This document shows, piece after piece, positions 15,351-20,602 of a stretch of 20,602 nt of DNA. Location of the stretch: the IMG/VR virus record IMGVR_UViG_3300006637_000054, positions 1 to 20,602 of that record, one strand, 5' to 3'. The notes below the pieces were generated by a model. The model made no database searches. It saw only the letters and a list, made by a program, of their open reading frames with translations, and was not told the origin of the DNA. The translations under genes and the position numbers were made by a program. Positions within the stretch are counted from its first letter, which is position 1. Every line of letters begins with the position of its first letter. Source of the stretch: a virus.

Positions 15351-15911
15351 CTATCTCCTTGCTTCAATGAAAACATCACTCCAGAGGGTGTCAACATTCG
15401 CACGCTCTGCCGAATCGATGGAGCGCGCTTCTGCAACAACGCTGAGAAACTTGGAAAGCATGTTGTTGCGCAGTTCCGGTCTGCCGGTCAAAGATTCTGC
15501 GATCTCTGATGCGAGCTTCAGCGCAATCGCTTGAATGATTACACTGTCAAATTCATTGGGATCAAGAACTTGTTTAACGTATTTGAGCAGGACTTTTTCT
15601 GCATCGGTGACGATGTTTCCGTTTTCGATGCGGAATGGTGTCTCCCATTCTTCAACGTCAAGAACGCGCAAACAGTCACTAGGCAACGAATAAGCATAAT
15701 CGAAGCCCCATACTGGCGCGGTGTCGTTACGTGCTAGCTGGGTGCGCTTGATGGCGCATGACCAAGGATGCGAGCGCAGGACTGAATCTCTGACATCATC
15801 GTACCGGAGATTGCAGACCCTGGCCCGCTCGTTGGCATCCGACAAGCTAGATATTTTCTGGTCGCCCAGATTGCTCAAAGCGATATTACAAATATCAACT
15901 ACGCTTGCCAT
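15351..15911 (-). CDS. Tail gatekeeper, tail tubular A-like (186 aa)
   Basis: The start 'MASVVDICNIALSNLGDQKI' followed by 'RYDDVRDSVLRSHPWSCAIK' is characteristic of the T7 gp11-type tail tubular protein A family (196 residues in T7). 'YSLPSDCLRVLDV' and the C-terminal helix with 'ALKLASEIAESLTG' also fit. The protein forms the ring between portal and nozzle that closes the DNA channel. It starts 8 bases after the stop of the decoration gene with no strong Shine-Dalgarno, so coupling to the upstream gene is likely. It abuts the nozzle gene directly, in the same order as T7 genes 11 and 12. Confidence 0.9.
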   Translation of the reverse strand: MASVVDICNIALSNLGDQKISSLSDANERARVCNLRYDDVRDSVLRSHPWSCAIKRTQLARNDTAPVWGFDYAYSLPSDCLRVLDVEEWETPFRIENGNIVTDAEKVLLKYVKQVLDPNEFDSVIIQAIALKLASEIAESLTGRPELRNNMLSKFLSVVAEARSIDSAERANVDTLWSDVFIEARR

Positions 15912-15919
15912 AGTGCTGC

Positions 15920-16357
15920 TTAGTCAACGGTGTAAAAGATCGTACACTTGACAACCTTGGTGTCTGCCAAAGCAGCAGATCCAAGTGTGACCTTTACATC
16001 TGACAAAGCAGTGGTTTTCGTTCCAGCAGTAACTACGCTGAAAAGATTAGGCACGCTAGCAGTCGCTGTAGCAGCAGCCCGCATGGTGGTAGCACCAACG
16101 GTGATTGCATAAGTACAACTACTGTTTGAATTATCGTGCTGCAAGATTCCATAAAGCAAAGTAGCGTTAGCAGGAACTTTACCCAGGAAGATTACATCAG
16201 AGTTTCCAGTATTACCGGAAGCTGTGAATGAATCGTAGCACACACGCACACGCCCACCCCACTCTGCGACATCGATGTTAGCAGCAAGAGCGCCGCTAGT
16301 GTCTCCAGCCGCAACGGGATCTTGAGCGGTGTAGTTTACACCGTATAAATTTGCCAT
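15920..16357 (-). CDS. Probable capsid decoration/cement protein (145 aa)
   Basis: A small Ala/Thr/Val-rich beta protein directly downstream of the capsid gene. It starts MANLYGVNYTAQ and contains 'EWGGRVRVCYDSFTASG', 'VIFLGKVPANATLLYGILQH' and ends 'VKCTIFYTVD'. The 'GRVRV.YD...........V...GK.P..A' pattern is seen in many environmental podoviruses just after this type of major capsid gene, where the protein is taken to be a head decoration or cement protein. A strong AAGGAG Shine-Dalgarno (bases 16362-16367), 4 bases before the ATG, fits high-level expression. The decoration role is inferred from position, size and composition; the protein could also be a different head-completion component. 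Confidence 0.75.
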   Translation of the reverse strand: MANLYGVNYTAQDPVAAGDTSGALAANIDVAEWGGRVRVCYDSFTASGNTGNSDVIFLGKVPANATLLYGILQHDNSNSSCTYAITVGATTMRAAATATASVPNLFSVVTAGTKTTALSDVKVTLGSAALADTKVVKCTIFYTVD

Positions 16358-16383
16358 AAGACTCCTTAGTGGCTAGTGGTTAA

Positions 16384-17325
16384 TTAAGAAGGATCGCAAG
16401 CAATTTCAACCACACGCTCTTCTTCCAATCGCACCGATCCGATGGTCATGTTCAGATAAACGTAGGTGCTGAATCGCTTGTCAGCCCGCTCTGTGATTCT
16501 CGCGCGCACATCTTCCCAAAGACAAAGGCCGATGCCGTCACGGTGGAATGCGATCACTTGATCATCGCTGTTTCCATCAGTAGTGATTCGCTCGCTTCTA
16601 ATAAACTGGAAACCCATGAAGGTGTCGAGTTCGCCGGATACCAGGGCGCGCACGCTGTTATAGTCAGCGCTAGCAGCACTGATGCCGCCTGAACCAGATG
16701 ATCCACCTAATGAAGTGTCACTGAGAAGCTTCGCCATTTGCTTGGCGTTTGCGACAATGAACAGATTAGGTCGTCCACCCATATCGTAATCGTCTGCTTC
16801 GCCGGCTCCTAAGATCCTGCGTGCTTCGATTAACTTACCGATGGTCAAACCTCTATCACCGGAACCTGAATCGTAGGTGTTAAAACTAACGGAAACTTTC
16901 TGCCCTGCGGGAAGAGTTTGTGAAGTTGCGCCACCTTTTCCAGTGAAAGCAGTTCCAAGCGCTTCAGAGATGATCAGATCATCCATTGCTCGTCCCATCG
17001 CATAGGCTGCGTTGACGGCATAAGGTGATGCTGGATCAATCAACATGCGAAGCTTGTCGCTGTTATCGACCATATCTCCCCAATCGTATGATTTCGGCAC
17101 AACGCGCCTGCGATCATGTGGGGTATCAATGAGCGGAGAATCCGCGTGGCGTGAAGTAACTTCTTGTGCGTTGGTGCTTCCAATACGCTCCATGAAGACT
17201 TCTTCACCGATTTTACCGGTTTCTAAGCGCACAGCATTTCGCAAACGCGAACCTTGCTGTTGCACTAGCAGCATCACGTTATCCGTGTACTGCTTAACAA
17301 ATGCAGTAGTAATCTGTGTAGACAT
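16384..17325 (-). CDS. Major capsid protein (313 aa)
   Basis: The gene lies directly after the scaffold and is preceded by its own promoter-leader region. The sequence starts 'MSTQITTAFVKQYTDNVMLL', with 'GSRLRNAVRLETGKIGEEVF' and 'RRVVPKSYDWGDMVDNSDKL' following. These match the ~310-330-residue phage capsid family found in BPP-1-like and many marine podoviruses, with an HK97-type fold expected. 'YAMGRAMDDLIISEALGTAF' and 'FHRDGIGLCLWEDVRARITE' are other typical segments. No N-terminal prohead protease cleavage site is evident and a separate scaffold is present, as in T7. A GGAG Shine-Dalgarno (17333-17336) sits 7 bases before the ATG, inside one arm of a predicted hairpin. T7's capsid gene frameshift has no visible counterpart here. 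Confidence 0.92.
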   Translation of the reverse strand: MSTQITTAFVKQYTDNVMLLVQQQGSRLRNAVRLETGKIGEEVFMERIGSTNAQEVTSRHADSPLIDTPHDRRRVVPKSYDWGDMVDNSDKLRMLIDPASPYAVNAAYAMGRAMDDLIISEALGTAFTGKGGATSQTLPAGQKVSVSFNTYDSGSGDRGLTIGKLIEARRILGAGEADDYDMGGRPNLFIVANAKQMAKLLSDTSLGGSSGSGGISAASADYNSVRALVSGELDTFMGFQFIRSERITTDGNSDDQVIAFHRDGIGLCLWEDVRARITERADKRFSTYVYLNMTIGSVRLEEERVVEIACDPS

Positions 17326-17469
17326 GGAATAACTCCAAAAACAAAGGTTTTGATCCCTTGCGTAACAATTGGAGTTATCCCGAACAGTGGGGTTCCGGCC
17401 TGCTAGCTACTTGGGCGCTCGCGCGTTGTCCTCAAGCTATGCTAGGCAAGCAAGGTGGATGAATTTCGT
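17326..17469 (-). promoter_or_regulatory. Structured 5' leader of the capsid gene with hidden Shine-Dalgarno
   Basis: This gap has no ATG-started reading frame in the transcript sense. In the RNA sense, a 10-base arm (complement of 17369-17378, AUAACUCCAA downstream of nothing coding) pairs perfectly with UUGGAGUUAU (complement of 17329-17338), which contains the capsid gene's GGAG. Inside it, CAAGGG (17355-17360) pairs with CCUUUG (17342-17347) around a 7-base loop, followed by a U-rich run. Upstream, bases 17398-17415 and 17430-17447 form an imperfect hairpin with a GC-rich loop. The outer stem would block ribosome binding unless opened by a protein, another RNA, or ribosomes. Pairings are read directly; the control function is inferred. 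Confidence 0.6.
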
Positions 17470-17475
17470 AGGTTA

Positions 17476-17504
17476 ATTATATCATTTAACCCATGTATTG
17501 ATAA
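17476..17504 (-). promoter_or_regulatory. Sigma70-like extended -10 promoter for the capsid gene
   Basis: In the minus-strand sense there is a perfect TATAAT at 17476-17481, preceded by TGA (bases 17482-17484) to make an extended -10 (TGnTATAAT). A TTATCA hexamer (4 of 6 to TTGACA) lies at 17499-17504, giving a spacing of exactly 17 bases. The -35 is inside the last codons of the scaffold gene. Transcription would start near base 17469, giving a leader of about 140 nt before the capsid ATG. This is the only place in the window with an intergenic gap of more than 100 bases. AT-rich stop-codon regions can give such matches by chance, but the full set of elements and the location in front of the most highly needed gene support it. 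Confidence 0.6.
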
Positions 17505-18307
17505 AGATCCTGCATGCGTTTTACAGCTTCACTGTGCTTCGGATGATACGCATCACGATAGGCTTCCATGAAATCTGCATCTGCGCGCAAGTCTTCCATT
17601 GTTGAGCTAGCCGTGGCTGGCGACATGCCGCCTAGCTGCTCGCCTGTGCCAAGCATGACAGAACCATCTTCAGAAAGCGCTTGGCCGATCTTGCTGAAGG
17701 TTTTGATCAGACCAGGATGGTTGCCCAAGCCGGACTGTTCCAGAAACTGTACTGTGTCTGCATCGCCGTAGCGCAAGAATGCGCGCCGTGCTAGCTCCAC
17801 GTTTTTGTTGTAGTCACCGCCAAATTCCTGCTGAAGCTGCTGCTGATACTCGACTTGTTGCTTGTCGAAATTATCACGCGCGCTCTGATTATCTTGCTGT
17901 GCAACATCAACCAGATAGCTCCGCAGTTGGTTTGCTTGATCTTGGTTTAATCCAATATCATGCGCGGTTTTCTTAAAATGATCCGGTGTCTCACCATCAA
18001 AGTTGTATCCGTCTGGAGATTCAGGCCGGCCCAGCCGGTTATAGATTTCTCCTTTGTCGGATTCGCCGTTGATTCGGACAAGCTCTTCTCCTGGTGCGCC
18101 CAGCTTGCGAACCGCGTGTACGTAGCTTTTTGCCAGCTTTTCGATGCTGTCAAAGTTCCGTAGACTAGGTTCGTTTGCCAACTCGCCAGGAAGCGTGGTC
18201 GGATCAAAGTTTCCAGTAGGTTCGGGTTGCCCTCCACCACCTAAGATGGTGCTAGGTTCCGGTGCTACTTCAGTATTCGTCGTCGAGGTTTGTTCTACTT
18301 CGCTCAT
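17486..18307 (-). CDS. Capsid scaffolding/assembly protein (273 aa)
   Basis: An acidic, Gln-rich protein between the portal and capsid genes, matching T7 gene 9 (307 residues) in position and character. Residues 1-45 are disordered (Thr, Pro, Glu, Gly). Residues 47-105 include 'NFDSIEKLAKSYVHAVRKLG' and 'YNRLGRPESPDGYNFDGETP', a signature of phage scaffolds of this class. Residues 110-190 form a helical region rich in Asn/Gln ('NQDQANQLRSYLVDVAQQDN'), and the C-terminus 'FMEAYRDAYHPKHSEAVKRM' is a short helical segment, the part that usually contacts the capsid protein. It would direct prohead assembly and leave before maturation. A GGAG lies 10 bases before the start; the first 38 bases overlap the end of the Bbp19-like gene. 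Confidence 0.87.
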   Translation of the reverse strand: MSEVEQTSTTNTEVAPEPSTILGGGGQPEPTGNFDPTTLPGELANEPSLRNFDSIEKLAKSYVHAVRKLGAPGEELVRINGESDKGEIYNRLGRPESPDGYNFDGETPDHFKKTAHDIGLNQDQANQLRSYLVDVAQQDNQSARDNFDKQQVEYQQQLQQEFGGDYNKNVELARRAFLRYGDADTVQFLEQSGLGNHPGLIKTFSKIGQALSEDGSVMLGTGEQLGGMSPATASSTMEDLRADADFMEAYRDAYHPKHSEAVKRMQDLYQYMG

Positions 18308-18545
18308 AGGATTCTCGCTCCATGCGTTCCAGGTCAGCGATGCTGATGTTTAAGTATGACAGCAGATCCGCTACTACAGAGCGCCTGCCATCGTTGAAAT
18401 GCGTATGGTACGGATCGCCCGCAACCATACAAGGACTGAAGATGAAGTTGCGCGAGCATAAGTCTGCTAGCACGCTTTTGCCATCTTCCGTGTCAAAGAC
18501 ACGTTCATAGAGCGCTTTACGCTCCTTCTCCCGCTGCTTTAGCAT
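18270..18545 (-). CDS. Bbp19-like small protein (91 aa)
   Basis: The pattern 'YERVFDTEDGKSVLADLCSR' followed by 'DPYHTHFNDGRRSVVADLLS' is the signature of the Bbp19-like phage family, named from Bordetella phage BPP-1, where it also lies near the portal. Its function is not known; the location between portal and scaffold suggests a head-assembly role. The gene overlaps the portal end by 29 bases and the scaffold start by 38 bases, each in different frames. The only ATG consistent with the family's N-terminus is at 18545; it has no clear Shine-Dalgarno and may be translated by reinitiation or coupling from the portal. Confidence 0.8.
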   Translation of the reverse strand: MLKQREKERKALYERVFDTEDGKSVLADLCSRNFIFSPCMVAGDPYHTHFNDGRRSVVADLLSYLNISIADLERMERESYERSRTNLDDEY

Positions 18546-20205
18546 TTGCTAATGATGCTTGTGAGCGATTGCGGTCTGCCATCGATATAAGGTTGTTGGC
18601 TTGCGCTACCGCCATTTGTTCTTGAAGCTGCTGCTGTCGCGCCATTTGTTCCGCTTCTGCTTCGATTTCTTCCTGAATCTCTTCGTCAGTTTTAAAAACA
18701 GAAGGTGGCACGCGCAGTATTTCAGCCGCCAGTGATGCAACTCTTCCAGTATCGAGCCTGCGCAGGATGTTTGGATCGATCTGCGCCATCGGAATGAGAA
18801 ACTGGATCAGCGCGCTCACACTGGTAAGCTCGCCAGTTCGCATCGAAATCCCAACCGGATTAGTGTACTCAATGTTGAAGTTTGCTTCCACAAGGGCCTC
18901 TGGGGGGTCTGGAAGCATCCGGTTCTTAATCATGATGTTCATCGTGCGCTCAACCAGTGGTCCCAGAAACTCAACTTCCTGGCGTGCGACAATCGGTCCC
19001 AGGATGCTAAGACGGTCCCGCTGGCGCTGGTTGACTTCGGTGGCACTGAAACGCAGCACATCACCATCGGGCGCAACCGGCCCAGGAAGCTCCAGCATAT
19101 CGAGATAGAATGCACGGTTAATCGAATCTTTCACCATGCCCATTTTGGCTTCATTCAGATCCGGCCTGCCTGCGGTTTGTAAAGGAATGATCCTGTCATT
19201 CGGAGACAAGCCTGCACGGAAAAAGTTCAACCCGCCTGGGGTGGTTCGTATCGGTGAAAGGAATCCATCGTCAGGAACCATCAGCGGGGGATCAACCAGT
19301 TTGGCAAGTGCTTTCAATCCTAGCTCTTCCATCTTGTTAAGCATCTTGGTATCCGCAAGTGCTTCGATCCCAGGCCCGCGCCCATAGATTTCTTGGCTGT
19401 TTCGTTCCCAGCGGCTGCACACGTATGGAAAGGTTTCAAAGCCGGAAATGTTGACGATGTGGCTTTCCTTGAGCGGGCAGATGTAGACTGACATGAACGG
19501 CATGTTCATCGCAGATTGATCACCGAATGCGCGCTCCTTTCGAGGTTTAACGACATGCAGGCACTCAAATTCTTCATACTGCTTACCGTCTGTAAATGCT
19601 TTGACTACCGATTCAGAAAGATTGTCGATGCCAAACTCTTCAACAAGCTGCTTCGCCGTCATCTTGATCTTGCGGAACACGGTGTCCACGCGCCCCAGGT
19701 AATTGACTTGGAGATAGCATTCTGCGAGCGAGAAGGTGCGGAACATCGGACCCTGCCCAGGCATGTCTAGCACCATCATCACACCAGTTCCGAATGCTCC
19801 CAGGTCACTGTAATATTCGTGTGCGGCGGGATGAAAATTGGATTCCGGTGAATTGAATAACATGGCTGCGCGCCGCTGTGCTTCTTCAAGCCATAGCTGC
19901 ACTTGCCGATCCTGCATCAGATCACGCTCCACCGTCAACTGGAACCAGGGAATGCTAGCATTGGTCAGAGTGTTATGGATGCCGCTGGAGAACCTTGTCA
20001 GCGCACGCACCGCAGTTCCTTCATAGATTTTGTTGCGGCGTTTCTCTCCTGGTGAGTATTCGGAGATAAAGTCAGCACGCCTGGGAAGCATGTACTCGCT
20101 AATCTCCTGCCAGTAGTTTTCCCAATTACGCCGGTCGGTTTCTAACTGCTGAAACTCCGTGACCAGTTCCTTGGTGAAGTCTCGCACTTGCGGGTCATTA
20201 ACCAC
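18517..20205 (-). CDS. Portal / head-to-tail connector protein (562 aa)
   Basis: Residues 19-75 ('LETDRRNWENYWQEISEYML', 'PRRADF', 'IYEGTAVRALTRFSSGIHNT', 'LTNASIPWFQL') are characteristic of the T7-type head-to-tail connecting protein (Pfam PF12236 type; T7 gp8 has 536 residues). 'RKIKMTAKQLVEEFG', 'YGRGPGIEALADTKMLNKME' and 'LRFSATEVNQRQRDRLSILG' match further along. The C-terminal about 60 residues are a Gln/Glu/Ala-rich helix ('EAEQMARQQQLQEQMAVAQA'), expected to line the crown. Twelve copies should form the ring through which DNA enters and leaves. The start is GTG at 20203-20205 with a strong GGAGG six bases upstream (20211-20215), inside the previous gene; the ATG nearby is out of frame. 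It overlaps the upstream gene by 8 bases. Confidence 0.95.
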   Translation of the reverse strand: MVNDPQVRDFTKELVTEFQQLETDRRNWENYWQEISEYMLPRRADFISEYSPGEKRRNKIYEGTAVRALTRFSSGIHNTLTNASIPWFQLTVERDLMQDRQVQLWLEEAQRRAAMLFNSPESNFHPAAHEYYSDLGAFGTGVMMVLDMPGQGPMFRTFSLAECYLQVNYLGRVDTVFRKIKMTAKQLVEEFGIDNLSESVVKAFTDGKQYEEFECLHVVKPRKERAFGDQSAMNMPFMSVYICPLKESHIVNISGFETFPYVCSRWERNSQEIYGRGPGIEALADTKMLNKMEELGLKALAKLVDPPLMVPDDGFLSPIRTTPGGLNFFRAGLSPNDRIIPLQTAGRPDLNEAKMGMVKDSINRAFYLDMLELPGPVAPDGDVLRFSATEVNQRQRDRLSILGPIVARQEVEFLGPLVERTMNIMIKNRMLPDPPEALVEANFNIEYTNPVGISMRTGELTSVSALIQFLIPMAQIDPNILRRLDTGRVASLAAEILRVPPSVFKTDEEIQEEIEAEAEQMARQQQLQEQMAVAQANNLISMADRNRSQASLANAKAAGEGA

Positions 20206-20590
20206 TATATCCTCCGATGCTTCGGCCGCTTCCGCTTCCGTATCCTGCGCCGCCGGTTAGGTTTGTTTCTGCGCGGCCGTATCTTCCTGCAAGCATGCGC
20301 CGGATCGCATCTAATCGCGCGCGCTCTTCTTCAGGACTGTTCTGATTTTGTTCCATTGAGCTATCGGCTGTGTCGGTGCTACCGCTGCCGCTGCCGCTGC
20401 TAGAAGAAGTGTCAATGTCATCATCACCACCACCTATGCCAAAGCGCTTCATCCAATTACCGCCGCCCCATGCTTTGTCAAACTCGCCCCCACCTATGCG
20501 ATCACGATAAAACGCACCTCCTTCATAATTAGTTTTAAAATCTTCATACATTTCAGGAATCATCAGCATCTTGCCTGGAGTCGTATTCAT
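20198..20590 (-). CDS. Gly/Ser-rich small protein upstream of portal (>=130 aa), unknown
   Basis: From the ATG at 20590 the protein has 130 residues, but the frame remains open through the last 12 bases of the window, so the true start could be further out. The N-terminal part contains 'IPEMYEDFKTNYEGGAFYRD', followed by Gly-rich 'GGGEFDKAWGGGNWMKRF', an acidic-Ser stretch (about residues 55-78), a charged helix with 'SPEEERARLDAIRRMLAGRY', and a Gly/Ser tail ending GGYSG. It looks mostly disordered, with one helix. The end overlaps the portal start by 8 bases and the portal Shine-Dalgarno lies in its last codons, so the two genes are coupled. I recognise no family; a role as a head-completion or packaging accessory is possible by position only. 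Confidence 0.6.
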   Translation of the reverse strand: MNTTPGKMLMIPEMYEDFKTNYEGGAFYRDRIGGGEFDKAWGGGNWMKRFGIGGGDDDIDTSSSSGSGSGSTDTADSSMEQNQNSPEEERARLDAIRRMLAGRYGRAETNLTGGAGYGSGSGRSIGGYSG

Positions 20591-20602
20591 CCATCGCCCG
20601 CC

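Follow-up and report, generated by a model that had tools for sequence, protein, structure and literature searches.

In the single-stranded RNA phages MS2 and R17, the coat-protein operator is an RNA hairpin whose small conserved loop motif controls translation initiation in a virion gene region by autogenous repression, while in the podovirus T7 the leader of the major capsid gene (gene 10) stands directly after its own promoter, acts as an enhancer and keeps its ribosome site open. Two exclusive folds, one of which hides the ribosome site, are known from Shine-Dalgarno-sequestering riboswitches and from ribosomal-protein leaders such as that of rpsO (S15). Among double-stranded DNA (dsDNA) phages, the gene 43, gene 32 and RegA operators of T4 are mRNA leaders that control translation initiation through structure (PMC3014915); they belong to replication genes, and the portion of PMC3014915 considered here describes no T4 capsid operator. 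Regulatory RNAs are also found in phages of streamlined marine bacteria, namely the glutamine riboswitches of marine phages (PMC9004378). Herein we describe an RNA element 5' of the major capsid gene in a 20,602-nucleotide (nt) stretch of viral DNA (the whole of IMG/VR record IMGVR_UViG_3300006637_000054, a 20.6-kb fragment, hereafter the window) and in divergent podoviruses, including SAR11 phages, soil phages, Vibrio VP2/VC8, Alteromonas ZP6 and Yersinia YeP5. We assign a probability of about 0.58 to the reading that this leader acts in cis to switch translation of the major capsid gene, and that it belongs to an undescribed family of podovirus capsid-leader RNAs.

The element, which is built around two hairpins termed T1 and T2, resembles the MS2/R17 operator in joining a phage RNA hairpin and a small conserved loop motif to a virion gene region, but it belongs to tailed dsDNA phages and has two opposite motifs set in internal loops instead of a hairpin loop, a competing stem and a candidate binder only. 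With the sequestering riboswitches and ribosomal-protein leaders it shares the two exclusive folds, and it differs from them in preceding a phage capsid gene, in that the motif strand is itself the anti-Shine-Dalgarno strand, and in lacking an Rfam match: nothing scored above the gathering threshold, and a permissive search returned only sub-threshold matches at chance level. The T7 gene 10 leader differs in its open site, and a T1/T2 pair is not recognised in it by eye. No UAAC hairpin loop or pseudoknot of the kind seen in the T4 operators was identified in the window leader, and the glutamine riboswitches differ in RNA, gene and phage family. No account of the element was found in searches of an open-access library.

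The window carries the minus-strand structural operon of a podovirus (portal, scaffold, capsid and tail tube), and the leader lies between the scaffold gene and the major capsid gene, whose AUG (17325-17323) is 160 nt from the scaffold stop. Its parts are as follows.

17326..17338, minus strand: switch strand a', UUGGAGUUAUUCC, with the Shine-Dalgarno GGAG and spacer; complement of strand b
17341..17361, minus strand: nested stem of 7 base pairs (bp), 17361-17355 with 17347-17341, between the switch strand and the Shine-Dalgarno strand; seen in the fold
17369..17381, minus strand: switch strand b, GGGAUAACUCCAA, whose partner is either the GGA of T2 or the Shine-Dalgarno strand
17371..17396, minus strand: motif T2, GGA-A-C-CCC-ACUGUUC-GGG-[AUAA]-C-UCC, alternative to the sequestering stem; matched by the motif descriptor, with an equivalent T2 in all A/B relatives
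17398..17450, minus strand: larger 5' hairpin enclosing T1, GCUUGCCUAGC... / ...GCUAGCAGGC, stable at all transcript lengths of at least 72 nt and conserved
17410..17436, minus strand: motif T1 hairpin, internal loop GG-[ACAA]-CGC-GCGA-GCG-C-CC (17431-17413) within CUUG/CAAG; present in the minimum free energy fold and at most transcript lengths

A preliminary description of the window had pointed to a perfect 10-base inverted repeat that, together with a nested 6-base stem, encloses the GGAG of the capsid gene. The repeat (17338-17329 with 17378-17369) is indeed exact and longer than claimed, extending with one G-U pair to a 13-bp stem (GGGAUAACUCCAA, 17381-17369, with UUGGAGUUAUUCC, 17338-17326) that ends directly before the AUG; the nested stem is present with 7 rather than 6 bp, and it is the outer 13-bp stem that buries the GGAG (17336-17333), which the nested stem itself does not enclose. 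Comparison with shuffled sequences, which the same description had proposed, bore the structure out: the leader folds at −49.4 kcal/mol, whereas the value for dinucleotide shuffles is −34.9 ± 3.7 (z = −3.97), and none of 200 did as well. The ribosome site is paired in the ground state, as in a Shine-Dalgarno-sequestering switch, with an unpaired probability of 0.0 for all four GGAG bases, and when shuffled leaders serve as the control, pairing between the Shine-Dalgarno region and the leader scores z = −6.6.

Among close relatives (L001-L014 from IMG/VR), leader identity is 89–91%, as against 46–50% at third-codon positions of the capsid gene and 70–76% at the end of the scaffold gene, and this comparison of sequences supports strong selection on the leader. 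Aligning relatives, another check put forward in advance, also shows that the hiding stem is maintained by compensatory change: across seven sublineages of clades A and B, pairing each strand b with its own a' is equalled or bettered by just 2 of 5040 permutations. The partner of the Shine-Dalgarno in these lineages is always the 3' strand of T2, with which it changes in concert (CUCC/GGAG in the window, UCCGC/GCGGA in L396, UCCG/CGGA in L405 and UCCAUA/UAUGG in L015), and in the window clade that T2 strand, including its loop AUAA, is the exact complement of the Shine-Dalgarno and spacer. Strand b is thus common to T2 and to the sequestering stem in all A/B lineages, which gives two conserved alternative folds that exclude each other. 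One leader alignment (A3) had the stem out of register, and pairs were not counted there.

Duplexing the Shine-Dalgarno region with the rest of each leader and comparing with shuffled leaders gave z scores of −3.7 to −7.5 in clade A, a mean of −4.1 in soil clade E (10 of 11 below −2) and about 0 in clades C and F. Clades A and E are separate and well supported in the capsid tree, so sequestration probably arose twice or was repeatedly lost. In the soil phages the RYWR letters within the partner strand come from the T2 loop in roughly half of the cases and from that of T1 in the others, and the spacer before the AUG follows these letters (GGAUAA/UUAUCC, GGGACAA/UUGUCCC, GAUUAG/CUAAUC, GGUCAA/UUGACC). 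Because soil lineages use either T1 or T2, the Shine-Dalgarno helix taken in a single fixed register yields a modest covariation signal only, and own-versus-cross duplexes were used instead. The conserved trait is a ribosome site complementary to a motif strand, not one fixed helix. Such complementarity is hard to account for unless motif formation and sequestration exclude each other, and this makes a translational switch the best reading.

The anatomy of the motif pair was derived by reading the capsid leaders of ever more distant relatives. T1, the 5' hairpin, runs in the order outer helix, RYAR, inner hairpin, Y, outer helix, and T2, the 3' hairpin, in the order outer helix, Y, inner hairpin, RYAR, outer helix, often with extra hairpins between the two; clade C shows the T2 topology in both. 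Common to all is an asymmetric internal loop in which a 4-nt strand RYAR faces a single pyrimidine; the first base of the strand is coupled to that pyrimidine as an A-C or G-U wobble, and a 3-nt bulge follows, for example GAGG-[GUAG]-CGGAAGCCUCCG-U-CCUC and GAG-U-CCGGAAACGG-[GUAG]-CUC in VP2 and GGUAAG-[ACAA]-UUCGCAAGAA-C-CUUACU in HTVC010P. A scan that fixed only Y and A within the loop, leaving the first base and the opposite base unconstrained, found 105 distinct motifs in the leaders, counted without correction for kinship (81 A-C, 14 G-U and 10 other), against 12 patternless motifs in the capsid coding sequence used as a control. A-C and G-U wobbles are isosteric, and therefore the loop looks like one three-dimensional motif. 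In the window, T1 reads as GG-[ACAA]-CGCGCGAGCG-C-CC (17431-17413) with A facing C, although a strict descriptor demanding an outer helix of at least 3 bp missed it because the outer GG/CC is short; T2 has the expected topology, and its outer helix carries an additional A-C mismatch.

Support for these pairings comes from covariation. A MAFFT alignment of 32 leaders of soil clade E led RNAalifold, unaided, to T1 with its 4-nt loop strand and single opposite base, two middle hairpins and T2. In this T1-P2-P3-T2 structure 16 of 23 pairs show compensatory change, with 97 compensatory cells against 26 ± 5 when shuffled and a covariation score of 0.352 against 0.04–0.09 for slid controls. For clade C, RNAalifold on a MAFFT alignment misaligned the first hairpin and returned 13 pairs only, and a count in which strands were anchored on sequence, not pairing, was used instead: over 29 distinct strand pairs, the outer helix is 89% paired, compared with 63 ± 3% when partners are reshuffled and 46% at a one-position offset, and its second pair occurs as C-G (13), U-A (9), G-C (5) and A-U (1). 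A covariance model built from soil-clade leaders only (R1) was then searched against 333 kb of other loci, and 16 of its 17 matches (E up to 5) are capsid leaders, belonging to clades F, G, D and C, to MEP301, and to L415/L411 of the window's superclade, with E values in other clades from 2.6e-05 at best to 2.

That the leader structure is chance or neutral is close to incredible. Promoter-like sites as good as the one before the capsid gene are no commoner in the region than expected (3 found versus 5.2), and T2 alone is not significant in the window; the fold and duplex z scores, the conservation of the leader, the permutations, the covariation in the soil clade and clade C and the R1 matches nevertheless refute such an explanation. 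A thermosensor was rejected because the stem is too stable, as was reinitiation after the scaffold stop, which lies 160 nt away, and the lambda/P22 boxB, kink-turn, MS2-type AUUA loop and twister motifs were considered and dropped as unfitting in letters or topology.

On the translational-switch reading, which builds on the structure, conservation, covariation and mutual exclusion of pairings observed here, the T1 and T2 internal loops are a putative binding site for a factor. A protein is the most likely candidate, because the loop letters and the A-C/G-U coupling are conserved even in clades without sequestration. Were T2 (or T1) kept folded, the Shine-Dalgarno would be released, so that binding would mean ON; were it not, the 13-bp stem ending at the AUG would shut translation. 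In the window the T2 state lies about 12 kcal/mol above the closed stem, so this decision is probably taken while the RNA is synthesised from the local promoter. At 96 and 138 nt the optimal fold contains partial T2 (CCC/GGG); the full stem forms only once the last leader bases are made. The promoter in question is the following.

17476..17504, minus strand: capsid promoter with extended −10 and predicted start near 17469; based on sequence and on conservation of the −10 in relatives

It comprises TTATCA (17504-17499), a 17-nt spacer, TATAAT (17481-17476) and a TG at 17484-17483, as the preliminary description had it, and with 10 of 12 matches it is the top sigma-70-like site within 15900-20602. 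Of 13 unique clade-A loci, 8 have the extended −10 (TGnTATAAT) without a mismatch, and these are the whole of subclade A1. Most loci of the Baldr-like clade C, among the Pelagibacter-phage relatives, have a −10 with at least 5 of 6 matches and TG at a constant place 8–13 nt past the scaffold stop. An extended −10 is not evident in A2, B, E and F leaders, and no intrinsic terminator (a GC-rich stem followed by a T run) was found at 17326-17470. The control proposed in the preliminary description is therefore retained as to the local promoter, the strong selection on the leader and the ribosome-site-hiding stem with its compensatory change; it had missed the two copies of the loop motif, the role of the T2 3' strand as sequestering strand and the motif architecture as the common trait of the family.

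These energetic and promoter data would also suit a kinetic timer that needs no ligand, as in the MS2 maturation-gene leader: T1 and T2 would fold first, the ribosome site would be open briefly before the stable closed stem formed, and only fresh transcripts from the local promoter would be translated. The 12 kcal/mol advantage of the closed stem, the late completion of that stem and the conservation of the promoter in A1 and C all fit, yet such a timer leaves unexplained why the loop letters and the A-C/G-U coupling are conserved and why T1 and T2 are retained in clades without sequestration, and we think it unlikely. Quite unlikely, in our view, is an element for RNA processing or stability, for which some T7 early sites provide a precedent. 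An RNase III cut between the arms would open the ribosome site, or the structure would protect the 5' end; the 13-bp and nested 7-bp stems are suited to this, and leader structures are present with or without a hidden Shine-Dalgarno. RNase III does not need the conserved internal-loop letters (RYAR facing Y), though, and the switching of strand identity between T1 and T2 in soil phages is not expected at a cleavage site.

Several results weigh against the translational switch, either in the window or across the family. R1 has no significant match to the window (1.0 bit, T1 only) and in the window relative L415 the full model finds a match at no better than E 0.12, so that the window's membership rests on its T1/T2 anatomy and on the A/B relatives; the window's version of the element has diverged. 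Window T2 is short (3 + 3 bp with the A-C mismatch) and by itself reaches p of about 0.1 against shuffles, and the permutation test of the T2 outer helix (a:b) in the A/B group was uninformative. A gap of 12 kcal/mol is large for an equilibrium ligand switch, and when T2 is enforced in silico the GGAG bases become unpaired with a probability of only 0.01–0.54, as weak downstream pairing takes over. Lastly, clades C, D and F, which hold most family members, leave the Shine-Dalgarno open, and so the common job of the family need not be sequestration. The strong, open Shine-Dalgarno of these clades, with UUAACUUUA-like tracts just 5' of it (e.g., L031, L232 and L110) that by eye are reminiscent of the T7 gene 10 leader, could indicate a translation-enhancing or ribosome-loading structure (standby site), with sequestration in A and E merely lowering the level. 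Complete closure of the window site would defeat an enhancer, and the exact complementarity through the RYAR letters points to mutual exclusion; we consider this account very unlikely.

A broader proposal can be drawn from the same distribution, namely that a phage structural protein (capsid or scaffold) binds the motif pair as a twin RNA operator and so exerts autogenous control of translation, general to the HK97-fold capsid genes of tailed dsDNA phages and common to SAR11, soil and Vibrio/Yersinia phages; some lineages would have added a sequestering switch through a ribosome site complementary to an operator strand. We consider this possible but doubtful. Either way, a capsid-leader RNA supported by covariation would make the timing and dosing of capsid synthesis in tailed phages directly testable, with VP2, VC8, K300, ZP6, YeP5, Baldr and HTVC010P as cultured carriers, and the A-C/G-U coupled internal loop, which occurs in two opposite orientations, offers structural studies a defined target. 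Some of the most abundant viruses in the ocean, pelagiphages of the HTVC010P type, have close homologues of these capsid genes. With versions of the RNA in relatives from the ocean, from soil and among Vibrio/Yersinia phages, an RNA switch may control how very abundant viruses produce capsid.

Variation in the motif and its surroundings was observed in several places. In F sub-clades (L263, L234, L238, L240, L266, L246-L275) AYAC replaces AYAA in both hairpins, and several of these loci have an additional small gene of about 60 amino acids (aa) between scaffold and leader. Capsid relatives lacking such a leader are Acinetobacter TPWB-05, Alcaligenes Piluca and E. coli phage vB_EcoM_APEC, in which the capsid gene stands directly behind the upstream gene. 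Recurrence elsewhere in the genome was also considered, and no second GC-rich motif pair was found near other genes of the window, VP2 or Baldr. An annotated 93-nt gene in Lederberg_17 (L109, 1424-1516) overlaps the capsid leader and capsid start and is probably a spurious open reading frame on the structured leader. Locus tags are apparently swapped between two records, the Baldr record OQ414636 (L108/L321) carrying EXVC031PHodr tags and the Hodr record OQ414635 (L127) carrying EXVC032PBaldr tags.

At the promoter, the −10 of VP2 (L315) lies inside an inverted repeat, GTGTTCTCCCTATG..CATAGGGAGAACAC, with 14-bp arms, and the same is seen in MEP301 (L126). The window has a weaker repeat around its −10 (17491-17471, GGTTAA-ATGATATAA-TTAACC, p about 0.1), and such repeats are significant at only 4 of 70 promoters; a possible role is that of an operator for a transcription regulator. 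In VC8 (L122) the deposited "rho-independent terminator" before the capsid gene (1306-1357) coincides, by reading, with the promoter-flanking repeat, and this annotation may for that reason be wrong.

The genes on either side of the leader were identified as follows.

16384..17325, minus strand: major capsid gene, 313 aa (phrog_3437 major head protein, E 3.6e-76)
17486..18307, minus strand: scaffold/capsid-assembly (protease-like) gene, 273 aa, upstream of the capsid gene (phrog_3742 and phrog_458; synteny with annotated pelagiphages)

Directly after the capsid gene the window has a small gene (15920-16357) without a PHROG match. The gene in the same place is named a TonB-dependent receptor domain protein in Baldr (L108, 2380-2832) and in Skadi, and this small gene may be a candidate for a decoration protein.
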